Source: Polyangiaceae bacterium
GTDB taxonomy: Bacteria > Myxococcota_A > Polyangia > Polyangiales > Polyangiaceae
Assembly: GCA_019637295.1 (NCBI GenBank)
Contig: JAHBVX010000001.1
Span: 843,501 to 907,500 of the forward strand
Direction: 5' to 3'
DNA: 64,000 bases
In this document: positions 18,433 to 57,430 of the stretch, in pieces
Layout of the letters: the number at the start of each line of letters is the position of its first letter
Position numbering within the stretch: the first letter of the stretch is position 1
Position numbers and translations under genes: made by a program
Notes under the pieces: generated by a model
Databases searched by the model: none
The model's input: the letters and a program-made list of their open reading frames with translations, nothing else
What the model was told of the DNA's origin: nothing

Positions 18433-19386
18433 TCAGGGCTCCGCGCAGACCGGGACGAGCTCGTCGTCACCAAACGCGCGCAGGTAGATCCCGCGCGCGC
18501 CGCCGCACCGCCCCCGGAGCTCGCAGCCCTTGCAGCGCTCCAGGAACACGCCGCCCTCGATCGCGGACTCTTCCAGGAAGAAGCCGTGACCGCCGGGATC
18601 GACGACCCACAGATCCAGCTCCCGAGCCAGGAAGGCCGAACCCCGAAGCGACGCCGGCAGCGTGCAGGGCGGCGTGTGCAGCGACGTGATGAAATCGTGA
18701 GCGTCGGACAAGCCGAGCTCGAGCGCCCGCGCGACCTCACACGCCACGTCCCGGTAGCGCGGCATCTCTTGCTCGAGGGCAGGGTCGTTCGAGTCTGCGG
18801 CCGAGAACATCCAGACGTCGAAGCGCGAGAGCCCGAGCGCGAAGTGGCTCTGCACCATCGCCACGAGCTCGGACAAGTTGCTGCGGTAGATCAACAGGTC
18901 GCCGCTCATGGGCAGCCCGTGGCGGCGAACCTGCGCCACGCCCGCGAGCATCAAGGCGTAGCAGCCCGGCGTAGAGGTCAGGCGATCATGGGTCGCGGCG
19001 CTGCTGCCCTTGATGGAGAAGCTCACCTCCGTGACGCCCGCGCTCACCAGCGCCGCCGTGAACTCGGCGTACGAGAGCAGCATGCCGTTGGTCTGCAGGC
19101 GGACGCGGTCGAAGCCGAGCTTGCGCGCGTGCTTGACGAGCGCCAGCAGATCCTTGCGCAGCGTGGGCTCACCGCCGCCGAGCCACAGCGAGCGAGCGCC
19201 GCGCTGCCTGGCCCGCGCGAGCTGGTCGGCGATCTGCGTCGTGGTCAGGCTCGGGCCGTCGTCCCGCGCGGAGAAGCAGCCGAGACACCGGTTGTTGCAG
19301 CGGTAGTCGGCGCTCACCTCGAGCCATCGCAGCGCGCGCATCGCGGGAAGTGTTGCGGCCCGACGCGGGCCTGTCAAAGCCCTCAC
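18433..19386 (-). CDS. Radical SAM enzyme with C-terminal auxiliary cysteine cluster
   Basis: The 317-residue protein has the rSAM CxxxCxxC motif as CNNRCLGC, about 30 residues in, the SAM-contact motif GGGEPTLRKD and a later strand RLQTNGMLL. The C-terminal part has a likely auxiliary Fe-S site: an isolated Cys in LHTPPCTLP and then CKGCELRGRC-GG (C-x2-C-x5-C-x-G). Such SPASM/twitch-like clusters are typical of peptide-modifying rSAM enzymes. GTG 19386 overlaps the stop of a 36-codon gene by four bases (GTGA), so coupled translation is likely. ATG 19341 is the alternative start but has no ribosome site. Confidence 0.85.
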   Translation of the reverse strand: MRALTGPRRAATLPAMRALRWLEVSADYRCNNRCLGCFSARDDGPSLTTTQIADQLARARQRGARSLWLGGGEPTLRKDLLALVKHARKLGFDRVRLQTNGMLLSYAEFTAALVSAGVTEVSFSIKGSSAATHDRLTSTPGCYALMLAGVAQVRRHGLPMSGDLLIYRSNLSELVAMVQSHFALGLSRFDVWMFSAADSNDPALEQEMPRYRDVACEVARALELGLSDAHDFITSLHTPPCTLPASLRGSAFLARELDLWVVDPGGHGFFLEESAIEGGVFLERCKGCELRGRCGGARGIYLRAFGDDELVPVCAEP

Positions 19387-19493
19387 TCCACGGGAGGGAA
19401 CACGAACAGATCGACGCTCGGACCCAGCGCGACGAGCAGCACTTCTTGGCTGCCTGGGGGCGCGGCCTGCCCTTCGGCGATGGGCACGGCCAC
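19383..19493 (-). CDS. 36-residue candidate precursor peptide coupled to the rSAM
   Basis: GTG 19493 to TGA 19383-19385 encodes 36 residues starting MAVPIAEGQAAPPGSQEV and ending VDLFVFPPVE. Third codon positions are about 80% G/C, in keeping with real genes here, and the stop overlaps the rSAM start in GTGA. A stop only three codons upstream limits its length. There is GGGAG 13 bases before the GTG, a little far. The position and size fit an rSAM-modified peptide (RiPP precursor), but there is no Cys and no known leader motif. It might instead be a leader peptide that couples translation. I recognise no homologue. Confidence 0.5.
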   Translation of the reverse strand: MAVPIAEGQAAPPGSQEVLLVALGPSVDLFVFPPVE

Positions 19494-19556
19494 GAGCGCG
19501 CGTCAGCTCCCGCGTCAGCGGCGGGTCGTGCTAGGACTGGGGTGAGCGGAGGCCAG

Positions 19557-22500
19557 ATGGTACGTCACCCGCACCGGAAGCTCTTGGGCCAGTTGATGGT
19601 CGCGGTCGGCGCGCTGGCCACCAGCGCTGGCGCGCAGCTGCCCAACGTGTCCTACCCGGCGGACGAGGTGTTCACGGTCATCGGCCGCATCGACAAGGAC
19701 ACCGGCGCGCCCCGCGCGCACGGCACCGTGATGATGCACCAGGGTTACCTGGTCGTGGTCTTCTCGCGGGACTCGGGCGAAGGGGACGGCGGCTTCGCGT
19801 TCTTCGACGTGAGCGATCCGCGCGCGCCCGTGCTCGTGCACGCCAAGGACGACGACGAGACGGAAGACATTCGCGAGGCCCACGGCTTCGGCTTCGCCCG
19901 CATCAAGGGCCGGGACTACGTCGTGCTGCAGGCGAGCCTCGGGGTGCAGTTCTGGGACTGGACCGACGTGACGGAGCCGAAGCTGGTGAGCTACCTGAAG
20001 CTGCCGGGTATCACTGCCAGCGACTACGGCACCGGCGCCTGGTGGACCTTCTGGCAAGGGACGCACGTGTTCGTCGGCGGCTCCGGCAACGGGCTGTACG
20101 TGGTGGACGCGCGGGACCCCGCGAACGCCTTCCTCGTGCCCCCGCCGGAGGGCGCGGAGAACCCGACGCCGCCCGGTCGCCTGGGGACGTTCAAGACCGG
20201 TCCCGTCACCGCGCTGGGCAACGTGCTCGCGCTGTTCGGTATGGACCAAGGCGGCTTCGCCATGGTCGCCGTCCCCGATCCCGCGCGCCCCCAGCTCCTG
20301 TCCGCGCGCAGCATCGAGTCGGAGAAGATCTACAGCGGCATTTGGGTCGGTGATGTCTTGTTCGGCGCGGGCACGGCGGGAAACTTGATCACCATGGACG
20401 TGTCGTCGACGACCAAGATCGTCGATTCCGGCAAGAGCGTCACCTTCGACGGTCGGGGTGGCTACCTGTCCGTGCAAGACGGGTTCGCTCACGTCGGCGG
20501 GTCCAAGCGCTACTTCAAGGTGGACCTGACCAAGCCCGCGCCGTACCCCATCGTCGGCTCTGCCTCGAGCGAGCTGGCCGGTCGCGACGAGGACTTCGCG
20601 ACGGTGCTCGGCAACCTGGTGTTCGTCAGCGACGACCACGGCAAGGGCACGAGCATCGTCCCCCACCAAGCCGGGCCCGACCTCACGCCCCCCGCGGTGC
20701 TGCGGGTCGAGCCCAGGGCCGGCGCCCTCGGCCAACCGTTGACCAGTCGCGTGGGGCTGGCGTTCTCGGATCAGATCGACTTCACGAGCGTGGACGAGGC
20801 GACGGTGATCCTGCGCAAGGTGGGCGGGCCAGCGGTCGACGGCATCCGCAGCTACCAGTCCAACATCGTCTCCTTCGCGCCGCTCGCGCCCCTCGAACCC
20901 AACACCACCTACGAGCTGGTGCTCGCCAAGGGCGGCCTACGTGACGTCGCGGGCAACGCCGTCGACCCTGGGTTCGTCAGCTTGTTCTCCACGGGCAACG
21001 CCATCGACAACCCCCTGTGCAGCATCGAGTCGACCGGGCCCGCGCCCGTGGGCGCGAGCGTCACCTTCACGGCCAAGACCCCGGCGACGGGCAACCTCGC
21101 GTACGAGTGGGAGCTCGGCGGCGGCAAGACCGGCGCCGGGGCGAGCGTCTCGCACAGCTATGACGCGCCCGCGCATGTCACCGTCTTGGTGCGTATCGTG
21201 CAAGACGGCGCCATCCTGACCGCCTGTTCTCTCGCGCACACCGCGCATCGGCCCCTCGCGAGCGGCCGCCCGACGCGCAGCGGCGTGCTCGCTCTCGACG
21301 AGAGCGGCGGCGCGCTCTGGGTCGCGAATCCCGACTCGGGCAGCGTCAGTCGCCTGAACCTCGCCTCAGGGCAGCTCGAGCGAGAGATCCCGGTGGGCGA
21401 GGAGCCGCGCGCCGTCGCGCTCGCGCCGGATGGCCGCACCTGGGTGGTGAGCGAGCGCGCCTCGACCTTGAGCATCGTCTCCGGCGACGCCGTGGTGGAG
21501 ACCATCGCCCTCGGTCGCGGCACTCGCCCGGCGGGTCTCGCGTTCGCGCCGGATGGCAGCGCCGCGTACGTCACGCTGTACGCCACTGGCAAGCTGCTCG
21601 AGCTCGATCCGATCACCGGCGCCCGGCGCCGCTCGCTCGACATCGGCCCGCTGCCTCGTGGGCTCGCCGTCACCGCGGACGGCGCGCAGGTGCTCGTGTC
21701 ACGCCACGTGTCCCCGAGCGGTCACGCCGAGGTGCGGGTCGTGAGCGCGGTGGACTTCGCCGTCGACCGGGTAGAAGAGCTCGAGATGGATCTCGGTCCG
21801 GACAGCGAGGCGAGCGGGCGTGGCGTGCTCAACTACCTCCGCTCCCCCGTGATCTCGCCCGACGGCACTCGCGCCTTCCTGCCCGCCAAGAAGGACAACA
21901 CCGAGCGCGGCTTCTTCCAGGACGGCAACCCCCTCGACTTCGAGAGCACGGTGCGCGCCACCGTCGCTCAGCTGTTGTTGAGCGGGGGGGAAGACCTCGG
22001 GCTGCGTGTGGACTTGAACGACCGGAACCTGCCGTCCGACGTCGCGCTCTCGCCCCTGGGGGACTTGGCCTTCGTCGCCACCGAAGGCTCGAACACCGTG
22101 GAGGTGCTCGACGCCTACGACGGCGACCTGGTCACCTCCATCGAGGGTATCGGCAGCGCTCCCGACGGAGTCGTGTTGTCGACGGACGGCACCACGCTCT
22201 ACGTTCACTCGTTCCTGTCGCGCAGCGTCTCGGTGCTCGACGTGTCAGCCATCGTGCAGGGCGGGGCCAACCAGGCGACGCTCCTGCGACAGCTCCAGAC
22301 GGTGGAGACCGAGCCTCTGGGCGCCGCGGTGCTGCGGGGCAAGCAGATCTTCTACGACTCGTCGGATCGCCGCATGGCGCGCGACAAGTACTTGTCGTGC
22401 GCGAGCTGTCACTTGAACGGTGAGCAAGATGGCCGCGTGTGGGACTTCTGGGACCGCGGCGAGGGGCTGCGCAACACCATCTCGCTGCTCGGCAAGGCGG

Positions 22501-23225
22501 GCACGGGGCAGGGGCTGCTGCACTGGAGCGCCAACTTCGACGAGGTTCAGGACTTCGAGCACGACATCCGGGGCGCCTTCGACGGCACGGGCTTCCTCTC
22601 GGACGCGGACTTCGCGCTCACCGCCGACACCCTCGGGGCGTCCAAGGCGGGCAAGGACGAGGAGCTCGACGCGCTGGCGCTGTACGTCGCGTCCCTCGAT
22701 CGCACCTATCCGAGCCCGCATCGCCAGGCGGACGGCACAGCCACGGACGCGGCGCGCGCCGGGCGTCGACTGTTCGAGGCCTTTGGCTGCGACGGCTGCC
22801 ACGCGGGGCCGCGCACCACCTCGTCATCCCTGACGCTCGCTCTGCACGACGTGGGCACGCTCGGCGAGGGCAGCGGCGCGCGACTGGGCGAGGAGCTCAC
22901 GGGTCTGGACGTTCCGAGCCTGCAGGGGCTGTGGACCTCGGCGCCGTACTTCCATGACGGGAGCGCCGAGACGCTGACGGAGGTGCTCGAGCACGCCGCG
23001 CGCTCGGAGCGCCACGGCGCCGTTCGGTTGTTGACCAGGAAGGAGCGCGCCCAGCTGCTCGCCTACCTGACGAGCATCGACGACGACCCGATCGCAGGTG
23101 CCGACGACGCGAGCTGCTTCTGTGCGGTCGGCCCGGGTCGCCCCTCGTCCTCGAGGCCGCTCTGGCTGGGGCTCGCGCTGGCGGCGCTCTTGGGGTCGCG
23201 CCGGCGCAGGTCCGTCAGGGCTTGA
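19557..23225 (+). CDS. Large surface protein: propellers, Ig/PKD domains, di-haem cytochrome region, MYXO-CTERM
   Basis: The 1222 residues start at ATG 19557 (GGAGG 5 bases before) and open with a Sec signal (RKLLGQLMVAVGALATSAGA). In order come an LVIVD/propeller-like region (residues ~30-380), a Big_5-type Ig domain (PPAVLRVEPRAGALGQPL to LRDVAGNAV), a PKD-like domain (FTAKTPATGNLAYEWEL), YVTN propeller repeats (LWVANPDSGSVSRLNL, AVALAPDGRTWVVSE, PRGLAVTADGAQVLVS) and a cytochrome c/MauG-like part with two haem sites, CASCH and CDGCH. It ends CFCAVGPG, a hydrophobic helix and RRRR, the MYXO-CTERM sorting pattern, so it is surface-exposed. It probably has redox or peroxidase activity. It diverges from the rSAM/peptide unit. 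Confidence 0.85.
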   Translation: MVRHPHRKLLGQLMVAVGALATSAGAQLPNVSYPADEVFTVIGRIDKDTGAPRAHGTVMMHQGYLVVVFSRDSGEGDGGFAFFDVSDPRAPVLVHAKDDDETEDIREAHGFGFARIKGRDYVVLQASLGVQFWDWTDVTEPKLVSYLKLPGITASDYGTGAWWTFWQGTHVFVGGSGNGLYVVDARDPANAFLVPPPEGAENPTPPGRLGTFKTGPVTALGNVLALFGMDQGGFAMVAVPDPARPQLLSARSIESEKIYSGIWVGDVLFGAGTAGNLITMDVSSTTKIVDSGKSVTFDGRGGYLSVQDGFAHVGGSKRYFKVDLTKPAPYPIVGSASSELAGRDEDFATVLGNLVFVSDDHGKGTSIVPHQAGPDLTPPAVLRVEPRAGALGQPLTSRVGLAFSDQIDFTSVDEATVILRKVGGPAVDGIRSYQSNIVSFAPLAPLEPNTTYELVLAKGGLRDVAGNAVDPGFVSLFSTGNAIDNPLCSIESTGPAPVGASVTFTAKTPATGNLAYEWELGGGKTGAGASVSHSYDAPAHVTVLVRIVQDGAILTACSLAHTAHRPLASGRPTRSGVLALDESGGALWVANPDSGSVSRLNLASGQLEREIPVGEEPRAVALAPDGRTWVVSERASTLSIVSGDAVVETIALGRGTRPAGLAFAPDGSAAYVTLYATGKLLELDPITGARRRSLDIGPLPRGLAVTADGAQVLVSRHVSPSGHAEVRVVSAVDFAVDRVEELEMDLGPDSEASGRGVLNYLRSPVISPDGTRAFLPAKKDNTERGFFQDGNPLDFESTVRATVAQLLLSGGEDLGLRVDLNDRNLPSDVALSPLGDLAFVATEGSNTVEVLDAYDGDLVTSIEGIGSAPDGVVLSTDGTTLYVHSFLSRSVSVLDVSAIVQGGANQATLLRQLQTVETEPLGAAVLRGKQIFYDSSDRRMARDKYLSCASCHLNGEQDGRVWDFWDRGEGLRNTISLLGKAGTGQGLLHWSANFDEVQDFEHDIRGAFDGTGFLSDADFALTADTLGASKAGKDEELDALALYVASLDRTYPSPHRQADGTATDAARAGRRLFEAFGCDGCHAGPRTTSSSLTLALHDVGTLGEGSGARLGEELTGLDVPSLQGLWTSAPYFHDGSAETLTEVLEHAARSERHGAVRLLTRKERAQLLAYLTSIDDDPIAGADDASCFCAVGPGRPSSSRPLWLGLALAALLGSRRRRSVRA

Positions 23226-23986: not shown

Positions 23987-25621
23987 CTATCCCGAACGCG
24001 AGCGGAACACCTGGCCGAGCGGCTCGAGGGGCGCGTAGCCGTGGGCGCGGACGAAGTTCAAGTGTACCCCCGGGCAGGAGACGTCGTACGCGCACGTCGC
24101 GCAGCGCCGGCTCTTGGTGCGATAGCCGTGCTCCACGAAGCGAGCCGTGTAGGCGCGCACCTCCACCCGGCCGTCGTGGCCGAGCCGCGCGGTGTCCAAG
24201 ACCCGCTCGTGGCGCTCTGGCTCGCGACCGCCGAGACACGGCGGCACGTCGAAGGTGCGCACCTCCGGCGGCAGCTCGGCGAGGGTGGCGCGCACGTCGA
24301 CGTCGTGCTTGTGGTTGTCCGTCACCCGATCGTACGTCGGCAGGGTCACCACGAGTCGCGTCGGCGGGAGCTGCCCGAGCACGGACGCGGTGCTGCGGTT
24401 GAGCACCGCGCACAGCTCGGCGTTCGGCAAGCGCTCACGGAGCGCGAGCAACGCCTCGCCCGTGGTCACCAGCACGCGGCGTACGCGCTCACCCGCCGAA
24501 GTCGCGTCGACGCCAGCCCAATCCTCGAGCGACAGCCAGAAGCCCTCGGCCCGAACGCCGCGCAGGAGCGGGAGCGCGGCCGCGAGATCCGGCGCGACGA
24601 CGTGGGCGACCGTCGCCTCGGGCAGGGTGTCGAGGGCTGGCCCAGGCGCCACGACCCGGAGCAGATCCACCTGCGTCCGCGCCCGCTCGGTCAGCGCTGC
24701 CTCCAGGCCATCGCAGTAGGGCTTCAGGTAACAGTAGTGGCAGCGCTCGGGCTCGCGACAGCGCAGTGGCTCGCCCGTCTTGGTCCAGGCGTCGAGCTCC
24801 TCGCGCCGCCCCCGGACCTCGTCGTTCATCTTGTAGGGGTCCTGGATCAGATCTTCGAAGCCCTCGGTGAAGGGGGGCGGAAAGCGGTTGAGCCAGACGT
24901 GGACGTCCGGGCGCCGCGCGTACTCGAACGCCCGGCGCAGGGCATCCTCGTTGCCCTCGAGATCGTAGAACAGCGCCTTGCGCGCCGACCCCCAGGCCGT
25001 GCCAAACGGAATGATGTGCAAGAGGTCGAACTCTCTCACGCCCCACCCGATGAACGTCTCGAGCATGTCCGGCAAGTGAGCGACGTTCATCTTGTTGATG
25101 ACGATGTCCACGTTCACGATGAAGCGACCGCTGGCCAGCGCCGCCTGGAGACCGCGCACTTCCTGCTCGAACGCGCCCTGGGTCCCGACCAGCGTGTCGT
25201 GCAGCTTGGCCGTGTGACCATGAAGGCTGAAGGTGATCTCGTGCAGCCCGTTGTCCGCCGCCTGACTGAGGAACTCTGGGTATGCGAACATGCGACCATT
25301 GGTCACGGTCTGAACCTTGCGATAGCCGGCCCGACTGCCCAGCTTCACGAAGTCCAAGAAGTTCGGGTGCATCGTGGGCTCGCCGCCGGACAGGATCAGC
25401 CGCGTCGCGCCCTGCTTTCGCCCGGAGATGATCTGCGCCTTGATGTCCATGGTGGCGCGGATGCGTCCGTCGTGAGCGAGCGAGTCGAGGCAGAAGATGC
25501 AGTGATTGTTGCAGTCGTAGGTCAGCCGTACCCAGTTGCGCTGTTCATGGGCTGCGCTCTCGTGGACCTCCACCTTCTGCAGAGCGTCCGCCAGCGTCTC
25601 GGCGCCCTCCGCGTCGGTCAC
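23987..25621 (-). CDS. Radical SAM enzyme with two C-terminal cysteine clusters
   Basis: GTG 25621 overlaps the methyltransferase stop (GTGA) and gives 544 residues; a start at 25651 would overlap by 34 bp. The rSAM motif is CNNHCIFC (Cys 37, 41, 44), with LSGGEPTMHP following. A first auxiliary site lies at about residues 288-303 (CREPERCHYCYLKPYC-DG). After it comes ~200 residues without an rSAM barrel, ending in a second site: Cys in DVPPCLGG and then CATCAYDVSC-PG. Both clusters share C-x2-C-x5-C-x-G. The second half therefore looks like an extra cluster domain appended to a complete SPASM-type enzyme. It probably modifies a peptide or protein encoded nearby; the substrate is unknown. Confidence 0.85.
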   Translation of the reverse strand: MTDAEGAETLADALQKVEVHESAAHEQRNWVRLTYDCNNHCIFCLDSLAHDGRIRATMDIKAQIISGRKQGATRLILSGGEPTMHPNFLDFVKLGSRAGYRKVQTVTNGRMFAYPEFLSQAADNGLHEITFSLHGHTAKLHDTLVGTQGAFEQEVRGLQAALASGRFIVNVDIVINKMNVAHLPDMLETFIGWGVREFDLLHIIPFGTAWGSARKALFYDLEGNEDALRRAFEYARRPDVHVWLNRFPPPFTEGFEDLIQDPYKMNDEVRGRREELDAWTKTGEPLRCREPERCHYCYLKPYCDGLEAALTERARTQVDLLRVVAPGPALDTLPEATVAHVVAPDLAAALPLLRGVRAEGFWLSLEDWAGVDATSAGERVRRVLVTTGEALLALRERLPNAELCAVLNRSTASVLGQLPPTRLVVTLPTYDRVTDNHKHDVDVRATLAELPPEVRTFDVPPCLGGREPERHERVLDTARLGHDGRVEVRAYTARFVEHGYRTKSRRCATCAYDVSCPGVHLNFVRAHGYAPLEPLGQVFRSRSG

Positions 25622-26529
25622 GTGCTGTCCCGTCGATAGTGAAGCAACCACTGGTTGCTAGTGTGCGGGGAGACGTCGCGGCGGTCGAGCAGAGAGAGCG
25701 GAAAACGAGCGAGCTGGGCGGCGACCTCGGCGGCGCCGGCATTGTGGGCGTGCTCGAAGCGCGCTGGGCCCCGCTCGGCAGCCCTGGCGGCGGCGGCAGA
25801 GCGGATCACTCCGTAGGCCTCGTTGTCCACCAGCAGCAGGGTGCCACCCGGACGGAGCCGCGCGACCACCTGCTCGAGCAGGGCCCCGGCGTCCGTCAGG
25901 TGGTTGTAGCTGCGCAGGAGCAGCGCGTGGTCCAGGACCTCGGTGAGCTCCTGCAGCGAGTCGAGTCGCACCGCCGACGGGATGCGGCGCAGCAGGAGCC
26001 TAGCCCGCTCGGCGTCCGGCTCCAGCGCCAGGTAGCGCAGCTCGCCGCGTGAGGCGCGAGGCGCGAGCGCGGCGTAGTAGGGAGCCTCCCCCGCGCCCAC
26101 GTCGAGCACGGTGCCCGTCAGGTTGGCGAGGAGCTCGAGCACGCGTGCGTCGTCGCGCGTGAACACGTCATCCCGGAGCGGCACGACTCGACCGGCGCAG
26201 TCGCCGCGAACCGCGCACTCGAGGCACTCCTTCGCGCCGGTGACCTTGCGCAGATCCCGAGCGAAGTCGTCGTGCGCAACCTTGCGCGACACGTCCAGAT
26301 ACAGCTGCCCACTCACGCGCCTGACGCGTTCGACCTCTCTGGGCTCGAAGTCAGCGGTGTCGGTCTCGAACAGCCGCATGCGATCCCGCAGCCGCAGCCA
26401 GAGCGCCAGCTCCGGCCGCGCCACCTGGCGCGCGGGCTCGTCGCTCACCAGCGGGCAGCTGGCATCCGGGGCGCGAGGGACGTCCCGGCGGGGCACGAAA
26501 TGAAACGAGTTCGAGCGGAGCGTGCTCAC
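25618..26529 (-). CDS. SAM methyltransferase with an N-terminal rSAM-type cysteine cluster
   Basis: The 303-residue protein starts at GTG 26529, overlapping the stop before it (GTGA). The C-terminal two thirds form a class I methyltransferase: motif I VLDVGAGEAPYYAAL at about 141, LRYLALEPDAERA, and LRPGGTLLLVDNEAYG. The N-terminal ~115 residues hold a Cys at 25 (PDASCPLV) and CLECAVRGDC-AG (Cys 102, 105, 111), the same C-x2-C-x5-C-x-G found at the C-termini of the neighbouring rSAM enzymes. I infer a stand-alone Fe-S or zinc domain borrowed from an rSAM enzyme. The role would be methylation of the same substrate the rSAM enzyme handles. Confidence 0.75.
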   Translation of the reverse strand: MSTLRSNSFHFVPRRDVPRAPDASCPLVSDEPARQVARPELALWLRLRDRMRLFETDTADFEPREVERVRRVSGQLYLDVSRKVAHDDFARDLRKVTGAKECLECAVRGDCAGRVVPLRDDVFTRDDARVLELLANLTGTVLDVGAGEAPYYAALAPRASRGELRYLALEPDAERARLLLRRIPSAVRLDSLQELTEVLDHALLLRSYNHLTDAGALLEQVVARLRPGGTLLLVDNEAYGVIRSAAAARAAERGPARFEHAHNAGAAEVAAQLARFPLSLLDRRDVSPHTSNQWLLHYRRDST

Positions 26530-26750
26530 GGGGTCGTGACGCCCCGGTCCTCGATCGTCAGCCCCAGAGCGTAGTTGCCGAGCTCACTCGCGATCAGCGC
26601 TTCGGACACGCCGACGGGCTCCGTGATGACCACGCACCAGTAGTCGTCCGTCGCGCTCAGCGTGGCGCTGCACACCTCGGCGTACGCCTTGACCGCGGCG
26701 TCGATGGCCTCACCCGAGTACAAGTCTTTGGCGAAGCGGAGCTCCGTCAC
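26526..26750 (-). CDS. Small HxsD-like protein, 74 residues
   Basis: GTG 26750 overlaps the previous stop (GTGA) and the stop overlaps the methyltransferase start, so it is firmly embedded in the operon. The sequence (RFAKDLYSGEAIDAAVKAYA, WCVVITEPVGVSEALIASEL, GNYALGLTIEDRG) has the layout of HxsD-like proteins: a strand with YSxEAI, a helix, a strand, and a helix with ExxNYAL. HxsD accompanies the paired rSAM enzymes HxsB/HxsC in the His-Xaa-Ser system, where its role is unproven, perhaps substrate binding like PqqD. It could alternatively be the modified substrate. The assignment is by pattern. Confidence 0.6.
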   Translation of the reverse strand: MTELRFAKDLYSGEAIDAAVKAYAEVCSATLSATDDYWCVVITEPVGVSEALIASELGNYALGLTIEDRGVTTP

Positions 26751-27229
26751 TCGGGCTTCTCCGCGTCGGAGTCGTCCTCGGAGCTCGCAGCGGACTCGGC
26801 GGACTGCTTCTTCTTCTTGTACTTGTCTTCCCAGCTCATCGCGATGCCGAGCGGATCGTCGAAGGCCGTGCTCTCGTCGATGTCCATGGCCAAGAGCTCG
26901 TCGAGCCCGGGCGGCCCCGCGGCGCCGGACAGCGCCTGAGTCGTGACCTCTTCGATCAGCCTGCGATTCTCGTCCACGATCAGGCGGCGCCAGGCCTGCC
27001 CGAGGAGCTCGTTCTCGAACTCCCCCGCGAGGGCGGCCGCCGAGCTCGGGACACCGTCCTTGGGCGTCAGGCGAACGGAGATCCGACCAGGCACGGGCCG
27101 GTCCAGGAGCACGTAGCATCGGTCGATGAAGACGTACGCTGCTCCATAGATGGCGTCTTTGGGATAGAGCGCCTCGTCGAAAGAGAGCACGAGGCCCTCG
27201 GGCGTGGTTTCGGAGTCGAGCTTGGCCAC
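26747..27229 (-). CDS. HxsD-like protein, 160 residues
   Basis: From GTG 27229. The first ~105 residues match HxsD-like proteins: LSFDEALYPKDAIYGAAYVF, IDRCYVLLDRPVPGRISVRL, ALAGEFENELLGQAWRRLI, VDENRRLIEEVTTQAL. The last ~55 residues are a flexible, acidic and Lys-rich tail (DKYKKKKQ, then SSEDDSDAEKPE) that is unusual for the family. It is the first gene of the operon HxsD-like, small HxsD-like, methyltransferase, rSAM, with every junction a 4-base overlap. A strong hairpin lies just upstream (27246-27266). Likely a scaffold that presents the substrate to the rSAM enzyme; that is inference. Confidence 0.7.
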   Translation of the reverse strand: MAKLDSETTPEGLVLSFDEALYPKDAIYGAAYVFIDRCYVLLDRPVPGRISVRLTPKDGVPSSAAALAGEFENELLGQAWRRLIVDENRRLIEEVTTQALSGAAGPPGLDELLAMDIDESTAFDDPLGIAMSWEDKYKKKKQSAESAASSEDDSDAEKPE

Positions 27230-27304: not shown

Positions 27305-27961
27305 TCACGTCAGCAGGCGAACCATGGCGCTCAGCACGGGCCGGGCCACGACGAACCAGAAGACCAACGTGACGATCGCCAAGAGGCTCAGCTGCGCCGC
27401 CCAGATCACCCACCAGCGGGACTGACCGATGCGCGCCGGCGGCAATGGCATCATTTGTCTGGCTACCAGCGCGCCGTCCGAACGCCTGATGCGCGTGAGC
27501 ACGCGCCGGCCATCCAGCTTCGACAGCTCGTGACGGAGGTGAGCGTCGATCTTGACGGTCGTGCGCGCGCCGGGGATCTCCAGGCGAAACTGCCGGCCCT
27601 GCCCCTCGCGCACGACGGCCTCTACCCAGCCGTCCTCGGCGTCCCCGCGCGCGATGCGCTCGAAGGGCGTCTGAGGCGGGAGCTGCCTCAACTCGCGTAG
27701 CCGCGGCAGCATCGGGATGATCAGCCCGAGACCTCTCCCCCCGACACCCACCATGCCGATGGAGTACACGAGCCCGCCGGATGCCATTCCCAGGCTCAAG
27801 AGGCCGAAGCCCACCTGCCCGATGACGAAGAACCCCCGCGCGACCTGGCCGATGGCGATGACCCCGGTGGCGATCTGCCCCAGCGCGAAGAAGCCCGTCG
27901 CGAACTGGCCGATGGCGATGAACCCGAAAGCGTTGTCGCCGACGTCGATGAGCTTGCCCAT
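27305..27961 (-). CDS. Membrane protein with 10-residue Gly-Gln repeats
   Basis: ATG 27961 gives 218 residues. Positions ~8-70 hold about six tandem units of roughly ten residues built as G-F/V-h-A-h-G-Q-h-A-T (FGFIAIGQFAT, GFFALGQIAT, GVIAIGQVAR, GFFVIGQVGF, GLLSLGMASG). A soluble domain (FERIARGDAEDGWVEAV, FRLEIPGARTTVKIDAHL) and one C-terminal transmembrane helix (WVIWAAQLSLLAIVTLVFWF) follow. The regular Gly spacing suggests a stacked beta-solenoid or tightly packed hydrophobic hairpins. No family was recognised. It is co-directional with and upstream of the HxsD-like operon, 75 bp away. Confidence 0.6.
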   Translation of the reverse strand: MGKLIDVGDNAFGFIAIGQFATGFFALGQIATGVIAIGQVARGFFVIGQVGFGLLSLGMASGGLVYSIGMVGVGGRGLGLIIPMLPRLRELRQLPPQTPFERIARGDAEDGWVEAVVREGQGRQFRLEIPGARTTVKIDAHLRHELSKLDGRRVLTRIRRSDGALVARQMMPLPPARIGQSRWWVIWAAQLSLLAIVTLVFWFVVARPVLSAMVRLLT

Positions 27962-28023
27962 GACCGGTGGCCGCACGGTAGCAGTTGTCGCGCGGGCCTG
28001 CGCGATGTTCTAGACTGCCTCCC

Positions 28024-28962
28024 GTGTATTGGGTCGAGGTGCAGTGCGAGTTTCAGTGTCGGGCTTGCGGCCGGCTGTCTCCCATCAACTACCTGGACTT
28101 GGACGGCTCCGTGCGCTGCCTGTACTGCGGGCTCGATCAAGCGTTCGCGCGCGCCTCCTGGACGCGAGCGCTGGACCACGCCCACGCCCTCGGGGACCTG
28201 GGCGCGGCGCACGCGGAGAGCCGCGAGCCCCACGCCTGGCTGTCGATCGCGCGCGAGAACCCGATGAAGGGCAAGACCTCCGCCGAAGACGTGCAGTCTG
28301 GCATGGTCAGCGAGCGGGGGATGCAGTTTCCCACCTCCCTGCGCATCGACGCACGCCTGCGAGAGCCCCAGTGTCAGGCGTGCTCGGTCCCGCTCGTGGT
28401 GCAGCGCCAAGGGCCCGGTCAGGTACACACCACCTGTCCGCGCTGCGGCACCCGCGATCAGTTCGCGATGCCCATCGAAGCGCCCGGCTTGTGCGCCGGG
28501 CTGCGCGCGGTGATCGCCTCGGAGCACAGCACCGAGTTCAAGCCCACGCGGGTGCAGTGCGACGCTGCCCACCCGGAGGCGGTCACCCTCGAGTGCCCAG
28601 GCTGCGGCGCGGCCATCGGCATGAACCCGGGCACTCGCCTGGCGGTGTGCCAGTACTGCCGTACCACCTCGCGTATCCCCGAGAAGGCGTTCGCCCGCGC
28701 CGGTGCGGACGCGAAGCAAGAGCCCTTCTGGCTCGCGTTCGACGGGCCGTCGCTGCTGCGCAAGCAACTGCTGCGCGAGCCCGGGGTGCTCTCGCCAACC
28801 ACGCCGCTGCTCGAGGCGAAGCTCGCGGAGCCTCCGGTGCGCAAGCGCCCTACCGCAGTCGAGCTCGGCCTGATGGTGGCGCTGCCGCTCGTCTTGCTCG
28901 CCCTGTACGCCTTCGTGGACCTGGTCTTGCTCGCGGACTACGTCACGGAGCTGCCTTTCTGA
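28024..28962 (+). CDS. Membrane-anchored multi-zinc-ribbon protein
   Basis: GTG 28024 gives 312 residues. Three pairs of CxxC motifs suggest three zinc ribbons: CQCRACGRL with CLYCGLDQ (residues ~9-40), CQACSVPL with CPRCGTRD (~116-142), and CPGCGAAIG with CQYCRTTS (~190-217). The end is a membrane segment (VELGLMVALPLVLLALYAFV, DLVLLA). Ribbons repeated in this way occur in nucleic-acid or metal-handling proteins; the role here is unknown. It diverges from the Gly-Gln repeat membrane protein, 62 bp apart. Confidence 0.7.
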   Translation: MYWVEVQCEFQCRACGRLSPINYLDLDGSVRCLYCGLDQAFARASWTRALDHAHALGDLGAAHAESREPHAWLSIARENPMKGKTSAEDVQSGMVSERGMQFPTSLRIDARLREPQCQACSVPLVVQRQGPGQVHTTCPRCGTRDQFAMPIEAPGLCAGLRAVIASEHSTEFKPTRVQCDAAHPEAVTLECPGCGAAIGMNPGTRLAVCQYCRTTSRIPEKAFARAGADAKQEPFWLAFDGPSLLRKQLLREPGVLSPTTPLLEAKLAEPPVRKRPTAVELGLMVALPLVLLALYAFVDLVLLADYVTELPF

Positions 28963-28986: not shown

Positions 28987-29745
28987 CTACTCACCCGACG
29001 GCGGCGCGACGGGCAGGTGCCGGCGCTCGCCCCCGACGGGCTCCTCGGCCCGCCCGCGTCCCGCGAAGGTTCGCGGCGCGCCGGTCTGCGCCAGATCTCC
29101 CCCCAGCACCGCCACCAACCCCAGAGAGCGGGCCCGCGCGCTCGCGCGGGCGAGGAACGGCTCGGCCAGCTCCCGCGGCGGCACGAGCTGATCGGCGCAG
29201 CGCGCCGCGTCCCCGACCGCCTCCACCAGCGCCAGGTGGATCGCGCGTGCGCCGAGGGTGTGCGCGACGTGCACGATCTCCGGCAGATGTCGATAGTTCG
29301 AGCGGGTGACCACGGTAGTGATGCCGAAGGTGAGACCCGCGGCCCGCGCGCGGCGTAGACCCAAGACGGTCTCGCGGAAGCTGCCTTCGATGGTGGTGTG
29401 GTAGTCGTGCATGGCTTCGTTCGCGCCGTGCAGCGACACGTCGAGCACGTCCACTCCGCCGGCGACGAGCGAGTGCGCGTAGCCCGCTTCGGACAGGCGC
29501 CTGCCGTTGGTCTGCACCATCACCGACCAGGCGCCGCGCTCGCGCGCGAGGGTGGCCCAGCCTGGCAGCCCCTCTAGCAGCGTGGGCTCACCGCCGACGA
29601 AGGCCACCCGGTCCCCGGTCTGGATGGAGCTCACCTCTCGCTCGATCGCCGCGAGCTCGTGCTGCGGAAGCTCCGTGCGCAGCGTGCCCGGCGCGCAGAA
29701 GCGGCAGGCGTTGTTGCAGTGAAAGCCGAGCTCGATACGCCGCAT
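28987..29745 (-). CDS. Radical SAM enzyme paired with a Tat-exported protein
   Basis: The 252-residue protein begins MRRIELGFHCNNACRFCAPG; the rSAM Cys residues are 10, 14 and 17. VGGEPTLLEGLP is the SAM-contact motif, and VMVQTNGRRLSEAGY and LDVSLHGANEAMHDYHTT are strongly conserved in this group. The C-terminus (about 40 residues) lacks the Cys cluster found in the other rSAM enzymes of the window and is Arg/Gly-rich. It starts 14 bp after the stop of a Tat-signal protein, so the pair is probably one transcript. The likely role is to modify that protein before export through the Tat system, which carries folded proteins. Confidence 0.85.
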   Translation of the reverse strand: MRRIELGFHCNNACRFCAPGTLRTELPQHELAAIEREVSSIQTGDRVAFVGGEPTLLEGLPGWATLARERGAWSVMVQTNGRRLSEAGYAHSLVAGGVDVLDVSLHGANEAMHDYHTTIEGSFRETVLGLRRARAAGLTFGITTVVTRSNYRHLPEIVHVAHTLGARAIHLALVEAVGDAARCADQLVPPRELAEPFLARASARARSLGLVAVLGGDLAQTGAPRTFAGRGRAEEPVGGERRHLPVAPPSGE

Positions 29746-29759
29746 CCCCCTTGCGCTCC

Positions 29760-30269
29760 TCAGTCGACGTGCCGTCTCACGCGCTGACTGTCGAGTCGCT
29801 CGCGCAAGGTCGCGTAGCCGTCCCGCGACAGATGCGCCTCGTTGGCGCGGATGACCTCGGCCAGCGCCATCGCGCACAGTCCCTGCTCCTCTCGAGTGGG
29901 CGTGGAGCCGTCGCCGAGGTTGGAGACGAACACATCGAAGTGCTCGCTCCGGCCAGGCGCCTGCGGCGCGCCGAGTGAGCGATCCGCACGACACACGTCC
30001 AGCTGGAACGCACTGCCCGACTCCGCACTCGCGATCAGGATGAGCGCGCCATCTTCGGATGGGCGAACCGCGAGGACTTGCCAGCGAGCCAGCGTGCTCC
30101 CGGCGACGAGCGGGGCGATGAGAGGGTACGCGCTGGCTGCGCCCGCAGCCGGGCTCGGCAGGCTCGGTGCGGCCGGGGCCGCGGTGCTCACGGCCGGAGC
30201 GACGCCGAGCGCGGTGGCACCGGCTCCGAGCGCTCCCATGGCCTTCCTTCGGCTGATGGTGGACGACAT
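29760..30269 (-). CDS. Tat-signal protein, possible rSAM substrate
   Basis: ATG 30269 gives 169 residues opening MSSTISRRKAMGALGAGATAL, a twin-arginine signal (S-R-R-K-A-M) with a mild hydrophobic core and a cleavage region near STAAPA. After a Pro/Ala spacer the body (STLARWQVLAVRPSEDGALI, LIASAESGSAFQLDVCRADR, HFDVFVSNLGDG, CAMALAEVIRANEAHLSRDG) is a small mixed alpha/beta domain with two Cys. An ATG four codons upstream (30281) is possible. Export in folded form together with an rSAM partner right behind suggests a cofactor or peptide modification made in the cytoplasm. No homologue is recognised. Confidence 0.65.
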   Translation of the reverse strand: MSSTISRRKAMGALGAGATALGVAPAVSTAAPAAPSLPSPAAGAASAYPLIAPLVAGSTLARWQVLAVRPSEDGALILIASAESGSAFQLDVCRADRSLGAPQAPGRSEHFDVFVSNLGDGSTPTREEQGLCAMALAEVIRANEAHLSRDGYATLRERLDSQRVRRHVD

Positions 30270-30323
30270 GGCCTCTGCCATGGTCTGACACGAGACCGGC
30301 CGAGGTCAACTCGCCTGTGCAAG

Positions 30324-32921
30324 TCAGGCCTTCTCGAAGCGAAACTTGCCGTCCTCGACGGTCACGTTGATCGTGGCACCCTCCGGATAGGAGCCGCTCA
30401 GCAGCGCTTCGGCCAGCGGATCCTGCACCTCCCTGAGGATGGCGCGGCGCAGCGGCCTGGCGCCGAGCGGCGGGTCGTAGCCCAGATCCACCAGCCGCGT
30501 CTTGGCGGCTTCGTCGAGCGCGAGCTTGATGCGTCGGTCCGCGAGCAGACGCTCGAGCTTGCGGAGCTGAATGTCCACGATCAGCCGCAGGTGTTCCTTG
30601 CTGAGGGCGCGGAATACGACCACGTCGTCGATGCGGTTCAAGAACTCGGGACGGAAGAACTGCCTCAGCTCGTCGAGCAGCACGTCGCGTAGCGCCTCGC
30701 GGCCCTCGTCGCTGTCGAACAGCTTCGCGTCGGACTCCAGGATGCGCAGCGAGCCGATGTTGCTGGTCATGATCACGACGGTGTTCGAGAAGTCCGCCAA
30801 GCGTCCGCGCCCGTCCGTCAGTCGTCCGTCGTCGAGCACCTGCAACAGCAGGTTGAACACGTCCTGGTGCGCCTTCTCCACCTCGTCGAACAAAAGCACC
30901 GAGTAGGGGCGCCGCCGCACGGCCTCCGTCAGGAAGCCGCCTTGGTCGCTGTCGGCGTAGCCGGGTGGTGCGCCGATCAAGCGCTGGGCCATGTGTCGCT
31001 CCATGAACTCGCTCATGTCCAGCCGGGTGAGCGCGAGCTCATCGTCGAACAGGAACTCCGCGAGCGCCTTGCCGAGCTCCGTCTTGCCCACGCCGCTCGG
31101 ACCCAAGAACAGAAAGGAGCCGATGGGCTTGCCCGGATCCCTGAGCCCCACCCGGCCCCGCCGCACCGCGCGGCTCATGGCGCCGACCGCGTCGTCTTGA
31201 CCCACGACCCGCTGCTCGAGGCGCTGCTCCATCTTGAGCAGCTTGTCGGCTTCGCCCTCCAACATCTTGGCGACTGGGATCCCGGTCCAGACCGCGAGGG
31301 TCTGGGCCACGTCCTCCTCGGTCACCTCCCGCGACAGCTCGAGCGCCCCGCTGCTGCGCGCCGCCTCCTCCGCAGCTTTGTAGCGCTTCTCGAGATCCGG
31401 GATGGTCACGTGTTCGAGCTCGCCTAGCCGCGCGAAGTCTTTCCCCTCCCGAGCCGCTTCCCGCGCCTTGTTCGCCGCGTCGAGCTCCTGGGACAGCGCG
31501 CGAACCGCGGCTACTGCGCCGCGGCGCGACTCCATCTTGGAGCGCAGCTCGGCGACCTTGGGCTCGAGCTGCTGTGCTTCGGCGACGAGCTTGTCTCGCG
31601 CGACCTGGCTCGTTCGGTCCTGGGAGTGGTTCAGCGAATGGATCTGCGCGTTCAGCGACTCGAGGCGGCGCATCGCTTCGTCGGCCTCCGGAGAGACGCC
31701 GTCGGTGTTCACCCGCTTGGCCGCCGCGGACTCATCCATCAGATCGATGGCGCTGTCCGGCAGGAAGCGATCTTGCACGTAGCGCTTCGCGAGGCGTACG
31801 GACGCCACGATCGCGCCCTCGCCGATCTCGACTTGGTGGCGCTCCTCGTAGCGGCTGGCGATACCGCGGACGATCTCGATGGCGCCGTCGGGTGAGGGCT
31901 CCTCCACCGGGAGCGTCGTGAAGTAACGCAGCACCGCGGCGTCCTTGTCGGCGATCTTGCGCAGCCCCTCCGGCGTGGTGGTCGCCAGCATGCGCAGCTC
32001 TCCCCGGGCCAGCGGGCTCTTGAGCAGATCCCCCACGGTGGAGCCCGTCGGGCCTTGAGCGAACAGCTGCTCGACGCTGCGGGCCACGAGGATGGGCATC
32101 GCCGGTCCGCCCTCGGAGAACGACGCCAGCAGGTTGCGCACGCGCTCGTCCACGTCGCTGCGCAGCCGCGTGCCCGCGATCAACGCCGCGGAGTCGAGCT
32201 CGAGCAAGCGCACTCCAGCCAGGCTCGTGGGCACGTCGCCAGCGGCGATGCGCTGGGCCAGCGCGGCGATCACGGCGCCCTTGCCGACGCCCGGCTCGCC
32301 CACCAGCAGCGGGTGGCTCTTCTGCCGTCGCTCCAGGATGGTGAGCAGGCGCCGCACCTCGCCGTCGCGGCCAATCACGGGATCCAGTCGCCCTTGGCGC
32401 GCGTCTTCCACCAGGTCGTAGGTGTATCGCTCGGTCGTGACTCCGTGGCTCTCGCGCCGGCGCAGCTGCCGCGGGACCGAGTGAAGCGCGCCGAGGTGCG
32501 CTCGAAGCGAGCCTGGGCCCACTCGGTGCGCGCCGAGGATCTCGCCCGCGGGTCCCCGGATCTCTTGCGAGAGCGCGTTGAGGACGTGCTCCACCTTGAC
32601 CGCCTCGGACCGGTCCCGCTCACCCTCGCGCTGAGCACGCTCGAGCAGATCGAGCATGCCGGCGGACAGGTATGCCGACTCGTTGGACTTGGGGATCGCG
32701 CCCAGGGCGCGCTCGGTCGCGGACTGCAGCTCGACCACGTCCACCCCGGCGGCTCGAAACACCGCCACCACGCCGGGGTCACGCTCGAGCGCCCGAACGA
32801 GCAGGTGGAGGGGCTGCACCTCCGGGTGCTTGCGTTCGTCGGCCAATGCCTGGGCGCCGGCGACGAGGGCCCGGGCGTCCGGTGCGTAGCGGTCGAGGGA
32901 GAGCGTGGTGGTCTCGGACAT
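30324..32921 (-). CDS. ClpB-type disaggregase with a degenerate first ATPase domain
   Basis: The 865 residues have the ClpB layout: N domain (1-150), NBD1, the coiled-coil middle domain (~410-540) and NBD2. NBD2 looks active: GPSGVGKTEL, Walker B SVLLFDEVEKAH, pore loop GAPPGYADSDQGG. NBD1 is unusual. Walker A reads GEPGVGKGAV (208-217, the Thr after Lys is Gly). The Walker B region is PILVARSVEQLF, where F-I-D-E-L is normal. The pore segment is AGTRLRSDVDER in place of AGAKYRGEFEER, losing the pore Tyr. ClpB normally rescues aggregated proteins with DnaK; this paralogue may use NBD1 for structure only. It is divergent from glutaredoxin. Confidence 0.9.
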   Translation of the reverse strand: MSETTTLSLDRYAPDARALVAGAQALADERKHPEVQPLHLLVRALERDPGVVAVFRAAGVDVVELQSATERALGAIPKSNESAYLSAGMLDLLERAQREGERDRSEAVKVEHVLNALSQEIRGPAGEILGAHRVGPGSLRAHLGALHSVPRQLRRRESHGVTTERYTYDLVEDARQGRLDPVIGRDGEVRRLLTILERRQKSHPLLVGEPGVGKGAVIAALAQRIAAGDVPTSLAGVRLLELDSAALIAGTRLRSDVDERVRNLLASFSEGGPAMPILVARSVEQLFAQGPTGSTVGDLLKSPLARGELRMLATTTPEGLRKIADKDAAVLRYFTTLPVEEPSPDGAIEIVRGIASRYEERHQVEIGEGAIVASVRLAKRYVQDRFLPDSAIDLMDESAAAKRVNTDGVSPEADEAMRRLESLNAQIHSLNHSQDRTSQVARDKLVAEAQQLEPKVAELRSKMESRRGAVAAVRALSQELDAANKAREAAREGKDFARLGELEHVTIPDLEKRYKAAEEAARSSGALELSREVTEEDVAQTLAVWTGIPVAKMLEGEADKLLKMEQRLEQRVVGQDDAVGAMSRAVRRGRVGLRDPGKPIGSFLFLGPSGVGKTELGKALAEFLFDDELALTRLDMSEFMERHMAQRLIGAPPGYADSDQGGFLTEAVRRRPYSVLLFDEVEKAHQDVFNLLLQVLDDGRLTDGRGRLADFSNTVVIMTSNIGSLRILESDAKLFDSDEGREALRDVLLDELRQFFRPEFLNRIDDVVVFRALSKEHLRLIVDIQLRKLERLLADRRIKLALDEAAKTRLVDLGYDPPLGARPLRRAILREVQDPLAEALLSGSYPEGATINVTVEDGKFRFEKA

Positions 32922-56401: not shown

Positions 56402-57430
56402 CTACTCCGCCGCGTCGCGCTTCAGCACCGGGTCGAGGCCGTCCCAACCGTAGCGGCTGAGGTAGTTCTTCCAGACGCCTTCGCAGCGCGCGTCGTAGCG
56501 GCACTGCCGACACTCGGCGCGCTTGGCGCGCTCGGCGTCGTCGAGATCCGAGCGATACACGAGCAAGAGGCCCTTGCCCTGGCCCTCGCCCCGCCGGTCG
56601 TCCTTGCGCTCCACCGGCAGGTCGACGCGGCTCTCCAGATCGAAGTGCCGGTACTTCTCCACGTAGCCCCGGTTGAAGTCGGGGATGCTCTCGGTGGCAC
56701 ACAGCGGAATGTCGACCAAGAACGCCATGGGCTGGGCCTCGCCGCTGTCCGCGATGAAGCCAGCAAAGGCCGCTGCGATCTGCTCGTAGCGGGGGAAGAG
56801 CTGGTCGAAGTACGTGTCCGCGCGGCCGTTGGCCTGCATCACGTTGAACACCACCTGATCGACGCCATGGCTGCGCAGGAAGCGATAGATGTCCAGCAGG
56901 TGCGGCAGGTTGCGGTGGGTGAGCACCGTGGAGGTGTGCAGCTCCACGCCGTAGGGCTTGAGTCGGGTGGCGCTGTCGAGGCCTGCGACGGTCTGCTCGA
57001 AGCTGCCCGGCGTGCGCGTGAGCCCCTCGTGCAGGCGCTTGTCGTGCCCATGGATGGAGATGTACACGCGGTTCAGTCCGCGCTTGGCCAGCGCCGCGGC
57101 GTAGGGGAGGTGTCCGAAGCGACGGCCGTTGGTCATCACGCTGATGCGCCGGAAACCAAGCTCCTTGGCCCAGCTCACGAACTGAGGAAAGTCGTCCCGC
57201 GTGGTCGGCTCGCCGCTCGTGAAGCACACCTCTTCGAGCCCGCGGTGCTCCTCGAGCACCCAGCGCACGCGCTCGGGGGTCATGGCGCTGTTGTTCACGT
57301 AGCGCCCCTCCCGGTCCTCCTCCATGCAGAAGATGCAGTTGTTGTTGCACACCGCGCCGATCGGGATGTGCAGTCGCTCGTCGCGACTCTCTAGCCGCTC
57401 GACGACGCTGCTCTGCTGCGCTGGCTGCAT
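56402..57430 (-). CDS. Radical SAM enzyme with a C-terminal cysteine cluster
   Basis: The 342 residues from ATG 57430 have the rSAM motif CNNNCIFC (Cys 28, 32, 35), with FTSGEPTTRDDFP as the SAM-contact loop. LDSATRLKPYGVELHTSTVL and VFNVMQANGRAD follow. The C-terminal part has an isolated Cys in VDIPLCATES and CRQCRYDARC-EG (C-x2-C-x5-C-x-G), then VWKNYLSRYGWDGLDPV, the layout also seen in the enzymes at 18433 and 23987. It has no clear partner gene. The divergent gene at 57516 is a small MYXO-CTERM-like protein that could be a neighbour by chance. Confidence 0.85.
   Translation of the reverse strand: MQPAQQSSVVERLESRDERLHIPIGAVCNNNCIFCMEEDREGRYVNNSAMTPERVRWVLEEHRGLEEVCFTSGEPTTRDDFPQFVSWAKELGFRRISVMTNGRRFGHLPYAAALAKRGLNRVYISIHGHDKRLHEGLTRTPGSFEQTVAGLDSATRLKPYGVELHTSTVLTHRNLPHLLDIYRFLRSHGVDQVVFNVMQANGRADTYFDQLFPRYEQIAAAFAGFIADSGEAQPMAFLVDIPLCATESIPDFNRGYVEKYRHFDLESRVDLPVERKDDRRGEGQGKGLLLVYRSDLDDAERAKRAECRQCRYDARCEGVWKNYLSRYGWDGLDPVLKRDAAE

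Follow-up and report, generated by a model that had tools for sequence, protein, structure and literature searches.

A four-gene operon of a Polyangiaceae bacterium as a probable displaced part of an expanded HxsA4-type His-Xaa-Ser system in Myxococcota

Here, we report a four-gene operon, HxsD-HxsD_rel-MT-rSAM_A (MT, methyltransferase; rSAM, radical S-adenosylmethionine (SAM) protein), in a 64,000-nucleotide stretch of a Polyangiaceae bacterium genome (GenBank assembly GCA_019637295.1, contig JAHBVX010000001.1, positions 843,501 to 907,500), which as a whole is referred to as the window. We consider it likely that this operon represents a displaced part of an expanded HxsA4-type His-Xaa-Ser radical SAM system that is widespread in Myxococcota and whose enzymes modify HxsA4. 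This reading is based on gene content, conserved gene order and overlaps, co-occurrence across genomes, and conserved cysteines and SAM motifs. Probably, about five radical SAM enzymes and the MT modify a small protein of 10 to 58 perfect His-Gly-Ser (HGS) repeats.

The initial annotation of this DNA had described four minus-strand genes joined by 4-base overlaps and followed 16 bp later by a DUF695/RraB gene, and we find the coordinates, strand and overlaps as claimed: all three junctions (HxsD/HxsD_rel, HxsD_rel/MT and MT/rSAM_A) are GTGA overlaps, and the gap from rSAM_A to the DUF695/RraB gene is as given. No homologue of the latter was found in the related loci searched, and we take it as an unrelated neighbor rather than an operon member. 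Coding bias is strong in the frames tested (third-position GC 0.87-0.89), and close homologues of the operon proteins are mostly 45-74% identical. The annotation's further proposals, i.e., that these coupled genes make up a multi-protein modification machine and that rSAM_A and the MT carry metal clusters, agree with our analysis, in which the genes are a conserved functional unit described in no paper found.

The scan with rSAM_A covered 84,980 species genomes and gave 212 relatives (loci are given below as L numbers). Among the best 80 are those from Polyangium, Minicystis, Sandaracinus, Nannocystis, Plesiocystis, Enhygromyxa and metagenome-assembled genomes labelled Kofleriaceae and Myxococcaceae; the operon is kept across Myxococcota, beyond its own genome. 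L197 and L198 have the order MT-HxsD-HxsD_rel-HxsB-HxsA4-rSAM_C-rSAM_A, then, on the opposite strand, Tat173 and rSAM_B, with the rSAM_C homologue directly between HxsA4 and rSAM_A; it also lies between these two in L118 and comes after HxsC4 in L054. L178 has MT-HxsD-HxsD_rel-HxsB-HxsA4-HxsC4 followed by rSAM_B, Tat173, rSAM_C and rSAM_A, and L107 has HxsA4-HxsC4-rSAM_A together with the MT. Contiguity of rSAM_A or the MT with HxsA4, HxsB or HxsC4 is seen in L107, L118, L132, L197 and L198. The arrangement of the window itself (Tat173, rSAM_B, HxsD-HxsD_rel-MT-rSAM_A) recurs in L120, L125, L127, L128 and L206, rSAM_B being fragmentary in L120, and the order Tat173-rSAM_B-HxsD-HxsD_rel is kept in several genomes. 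In 14 loci, a gene of a MopE-like (PF11617-type) metal-binding lipoprotein is no more than 3 kb from system genes, the distance being mostly 31 bases or less (among these loci are L045:9320-11137, L107:6032-8407, L116:7928-9973, L125:6512-8215, L127:6357-8183, L128:5930-7711, L129:6010-8172 and L132:2-1258), and this lipoprotein is likely an extra component of the system.

Co-occurrence was evaluated in 97 genomes of the order Polyangiales. rSAM_A is present in 42 of them, HxsB in 42, Tat173 in 41, the MT in 40, HxsA4 in 40 (over its cut-off) and HxsC4 in 38, four of these 38 below cut-off. The genomes shared with rSAM_A number 40 for Tat173, 39 each for the MT and HxsA4, 38 for HxsB and 37 for HxsC4, with Fisher p values of 7e-18 to 1e-23 for the pairs. 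All four of rSAM_A, MT, HxsA4 and HxsC4 are present in 33 genomes and all four are absent in 54, and the presence of the system is patchy within the family. Four genomes have HxsB without rSAM_A, including G020, G021 and G064, which probably carry putative classical Hxs systems.

It had been stated initially that HxsA, HxsB and HxsC have no recognizable counterpart here, which needs to be corrected: the window itself encodes HxsC4, while the genes of HxsA4 and HxsB are found in the same genome on different contigs (Table 1). Against the classical HxsC model (TIGR03977, cut-off 267.9) HxsC4 scores 88 bits and fails. HxsA4 proteins consist of a leader with LP-F and G-L elements, then AQHCS(HGS)nW with n = 10-58; 58 perfect HGS units are encoded at L151:3036-3779 and 52 at L197:9270-9962. 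In the source genome (G000), HxsA4 has a leader followed by AQHCS(HGS)15W, i.e., 15 perfect units, whose codons vary, serine being encoded by AGC as well as TCG; such perfect protein repeats written in varied codons, with both serine codon families, indicate selection on the peptide. In the surrounding region (C20:386000-395600, L105), this HxsA4 gene has three kinds of neighbors: an NHLP-type exporter, a Nif11-like leader (weak match) and a biosynthesis protein of the thiopeptide type. We evaluated the exporter and Nif11-type genes as HxsA4 partners and rejected them: they are not beside HxsA4 in L119 or L124, and the proximity is therefore treated as coincidence.

Table 1. Coordinates of the operon and of other system genes in the window and elsewhere in the source genome
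Feature	Position	Strand	Description
HxsD	26747..27229	-	160 aa; TIGR03976 match just below the cut-off; C-terminal tail PLGIAMSWEDKYKK conserved in an alignment of 12 homologues
HxsD_rel	26526..26750	-	74 aa; small HxsD paralogue; NF038315 match
MT	25618..26529	-	class I (predicted); N-terminal four-Cys (SPASM-like) region
rSAM_A	23987..25621	-	544 aa; PF04055; predicted active radical SAM half and, as best read, a degenerate second radical SAM/SPASM half
rSAM_C	18433..19341	-	radical SAM; Cys-rich C terminus
rSAM_B	28987..29745	-	252 aa; PF04055, without SPASM end; starts 14 bases after Tat173
Tat173	29760..30281	-	small twin-arginine-signal protein
HxsC4	56402..57430	-	342 aa; NF038332 577 bits (cut-off 500); ~29 kb from the operon
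HxsB	G000:C8:35554-36957 (same genome)		TIGR03978 550 bits (cut-off 370)
HxsA4	G000:C20:395298-395567 (same genome)		NF038313 88 bits (cut-off 55)

The two small operon proteins had been taken as HxsD-type at the start, and the profiles support this. HxsD scores 48.6 bits (E 8e-13) against TIGR03976, just short of the cut-off of 50, its orthologue in L049 scores 52.2 bits, and HxsD_rel passes NF038315 ('HxsD-like protein') with 73.2 bits at a cut-off of 41. The two are homologous to each other (profile comparison, E 5e-6 over 67 columns). Nearly all of the related loci checked retain their 4-base overlap, which is therefore not due to chance. In canonical clusters HxsD_rel overlaps HxsB by 4 bases, whereas in the lineage of the window it leads into the MT; this is most simply explained by a move of HxsD and HxsD_rel from HxsB to the MT-rSAM_A pair. 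The core of HxsD was modelled with high confidence. Structurally, it resembles Rpb11/RpoL-like chains most, at a middling Z of ~7, a likeness in the model that may serve as a lead for the pairing of HxsD with HxsD_rel, no more. As for HxsD being a recognition element of ribosomally synthesized and post-translationally modified peptides (RiPPs), i.e., a PqqD-like winged helix, the fold search returned middling Rpb11-like matches only, and we claim nothing here.

rSAM_A matches PF04055 with 63.5 bits and has 11 cysteines invariant among 20 sequences: C37/C41/C44, which form the SAM-cluster motif CxxxCxxC, and two further sets, C288/C294/C297/C303 and C462/C507/C510/C516. With this core motif and the conserved auxiliary-cluster cysteines, it is a predicted SPASM/twitch radical SAM protein, its clusters being predicted as well. 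Its C-terminal half can be aligned with rSAM_C over 194 columns (94.3% probability); because the alignment begins past the SAM-cluster loop, the best interpretation of this half is a second radical SAM/SPASM module that has degenerated. The AlphaFold2 model (mean predicted local distance difference test score 83) matches BlsE, SkfB, viperin and MoaA. rSAM_A is neither a classical HxsC (TIGR03977, 96 bits, cut-off 267.9) nor an HxsC4 (NF038332, 121 bits, cut-off 500); it meets no curated equivalog model, that of a known housekeeping enzyme included. The MT reaches 24.6 bits against PF13489 (gathering score 27), and among 15 sequences C25, C102, C105 and C111 and the motif I DxGxG (D143xG145xG147) are invariant; it is a predicted divergent class I methyltransferase. 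In many relatives the MT is fused behind a complete radical SAM/SPASM module and forms the C-terminal half of the resulting ~610-residue protein.

Regarding the function, HxsA4 is, from linkage, most likely the substrate of rSAM_A and the MT, and we infer the part played by HxsD and the sequence of events as follows. HxsA4 would be made as a precursor whose N-terminal leader guides radical modification; HxsD and HxsD_rel together may act as non-catalytic partner proteins of the radical SAM enzymes; HxsB, HxsC4, rSAM_A, rSAM_B and rSAM_C would act by radical chemistry, their targets being the repeats or the conserved cysteine and tryptophan that flank these; and the MT would then methylate the product. 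Tat173, plus the MopE-like lipoprotein in many relatives, would be exported partners, and export with Tat173 would come last. It is tempting, though rather doubtful, to go further and picture a surface or secreted poly(His-Gly-Ser) protein of up to ~58 repeats, rebuilt lengthwise by five radical SAM enzymes and the MT into a new repetitive metal-binding or redox material that is assembled with the Tat-exported partner and MopE-like lipoproteins.

Several observations weigh against a displaced segment of an HxsA4 system. HxsD stays just below its curated cut-off. A single cluster for all genes is usual, if not strictly defining, and in the source genome the parts are dispersed, with components spread over at least three contigs. 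HxsA4 is within 10 kb of rSAM_A in only 12 of the 80 loci, and the linkage is therefore often by genome and not by neighborhood; please note that the Fisher tests ignore shared ancestry. Finally, a genome of the same genus (G001) keeps HxsD-HxsD_rel-MT without an rSAM_A orthologue, and a tryptophan-halogenase-type flavoprotein gene (L205:1590-3254) comes after the MT in place of rSAM_A. A similar halogenase-type gene is located near the MT in Polyangium (L133:5417-7621, L136, L201), and HxsA4 ends in tryptophan.

Other explanations have also been considered. The enzymes might act mainly on an exported protein, either Tat173 or the MopE-like lipoprotein, HxsA4 being a scaffold or just one substrate among several. 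Tat173 is linked to rSAM_A as tightly as HxsA4 is (40 of 42 genomes), MopE-like genes recur near system genes in 14 loci though the source genome has only about two dozen of them, and in MopE itself a modified tryptophan (kynurenine) and two histidines bind copper (PMC3423442). We nevertheless find this explanation improbable: there is no MopE-like gene in the window, Tat173 has few invariant residues, unlike a modified site, and HxsB/HxsC systems take their name from the His-Xaa-Ser peptide. That rSAM_A and the MT make a small molecule or cofactor and are merely genetic neighbors of Hxs genes is very unlikely; the nearest solved relatives of rSAM_A do include BlsE and viperin besides the RiPP maturase SkfB, but rSAM_A is found with HxsA4 in 39 of 42 genomes and the direct contiguity with HxsA4, HxsB or HxsC4 described above speaks against mere neighborhood. 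The initial annotation had offered three guesses on the substrate: HxsD_rel, the acidic tail of HxsD, or something encoded elsewhere. The last fits best, with HxsA4 in this place, and the first two are most improbable. They belong to the idea of the four-gene operon as a self-contained machine, to which we give hardly any credence: its strict translational coupling and the conserved tail motif PLGIAMSWEDKYKK would suit this idea, but HxsA4, HxsB and HxsC4 co-occur with the operon and are contiguous with its genes in relatives, and canonical clusters couple HxsD and HxsD_rel to HxsB, not to the MT or rSAM_A.

In the source genome just two HxsD genes were found. The second one belongs to a compact paralogous cluster (G000:C21:93092-100632; L044, L045) that contains the genes of a Tat protein, HxsD, HxsD_rel, HxsB and HxsA4 (ending HGQW) as well as three radical SAM genes and one MopE-like gene, and an rSAM_A paralogue is located at 86802 on the same contig, ~6 kb upstream. 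The genome has 64 radical SAM matches in total, many of them clustered. Tat173 was considered as a MelC1-like copper chaperone and rejected, the sole hint being a match of E 0.27 in the signal region while Pfam gave nothing. A Clp-type AAA+ ATPase (30324-32921, minus strand) adjoins Tat173, as it does in seven related loci, and synteny therefore reaches past the system. Three other neighbors, i.e., the protein at 27305-27976, the zinc-ribbon-like protein at 27985-28962 and the beta-propeller/cytochrome protein at 19350-23225, are not conserved with the system and were rejected as members. The last is secreted and 1291 residues long, and it combines Ig-like, PKD and beta-propeller regions with cytochrome c motifs of the RoxA/MauG type; its gene is on the plus strand between rSAM_C and the operon, opposite to both.

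The scattered genes are joined here into one testable set consisting of a repeat precursor, five radical SAM enzymes, an MT with a cysteine motif and export partners, and the product could be sought in cultured hosts, i.e., Sandaracinus, Polyangium, Minicystis, Nannocystis, Plesiocystis and Enhygromyxa. The set is also an example of genes conserved as a genome-wide unit after the break-up of a cluster. Our literature search found no paper on the myxobacterial system and none giving Hxs systems a product.

The His-Xaa-Ser (HxsABCD) system, represented by NCBIfam TIGR03976-TIGR03979, was reportedly described by Haft and Basu (cited in PMC9062424); the Hxs systems were a prediction made purely from sequence. 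The myxobacterial system has in common with HxsABCD the HxsB and HxsD homologues, the paired radical SAM maturases and the His-Xaa-Ser repeat protein. It differs in that Xaa is glycine, the repeat is long and perfect and HxsC is of the HxsC4 type, and it adds at least three radical SAM proteins, the MT, HxsD_rel and the Tat protein. With SPASM/twitch maturases such as SkfB, PqqE and PapB, rSAM_A shares the CxxxCxxC core and extra cysteine sets typical of auxiliary Fe-S clusters, whereas it has two auxiliary cysteine sets, one per tandem module, the second module being without the SAM-cluster motif. NCBI recognizes part of the system, since curated models for HxsA4, HxsC4 and the HxsD-like protein exist; these 'rare' NCBIfam models (NF038313, NF038332 and NF038315) describe the same system, and our HxsA4, HxsC4 and HxsD_rel pass their curated cut-offs. 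No curated equivalog model is matched by rSAM_A, rSAM_B, rSAM_C, Tat173 or the MT (alone or fused to a radical SAM module); these five families, tied to the system here, are outside its annotation.

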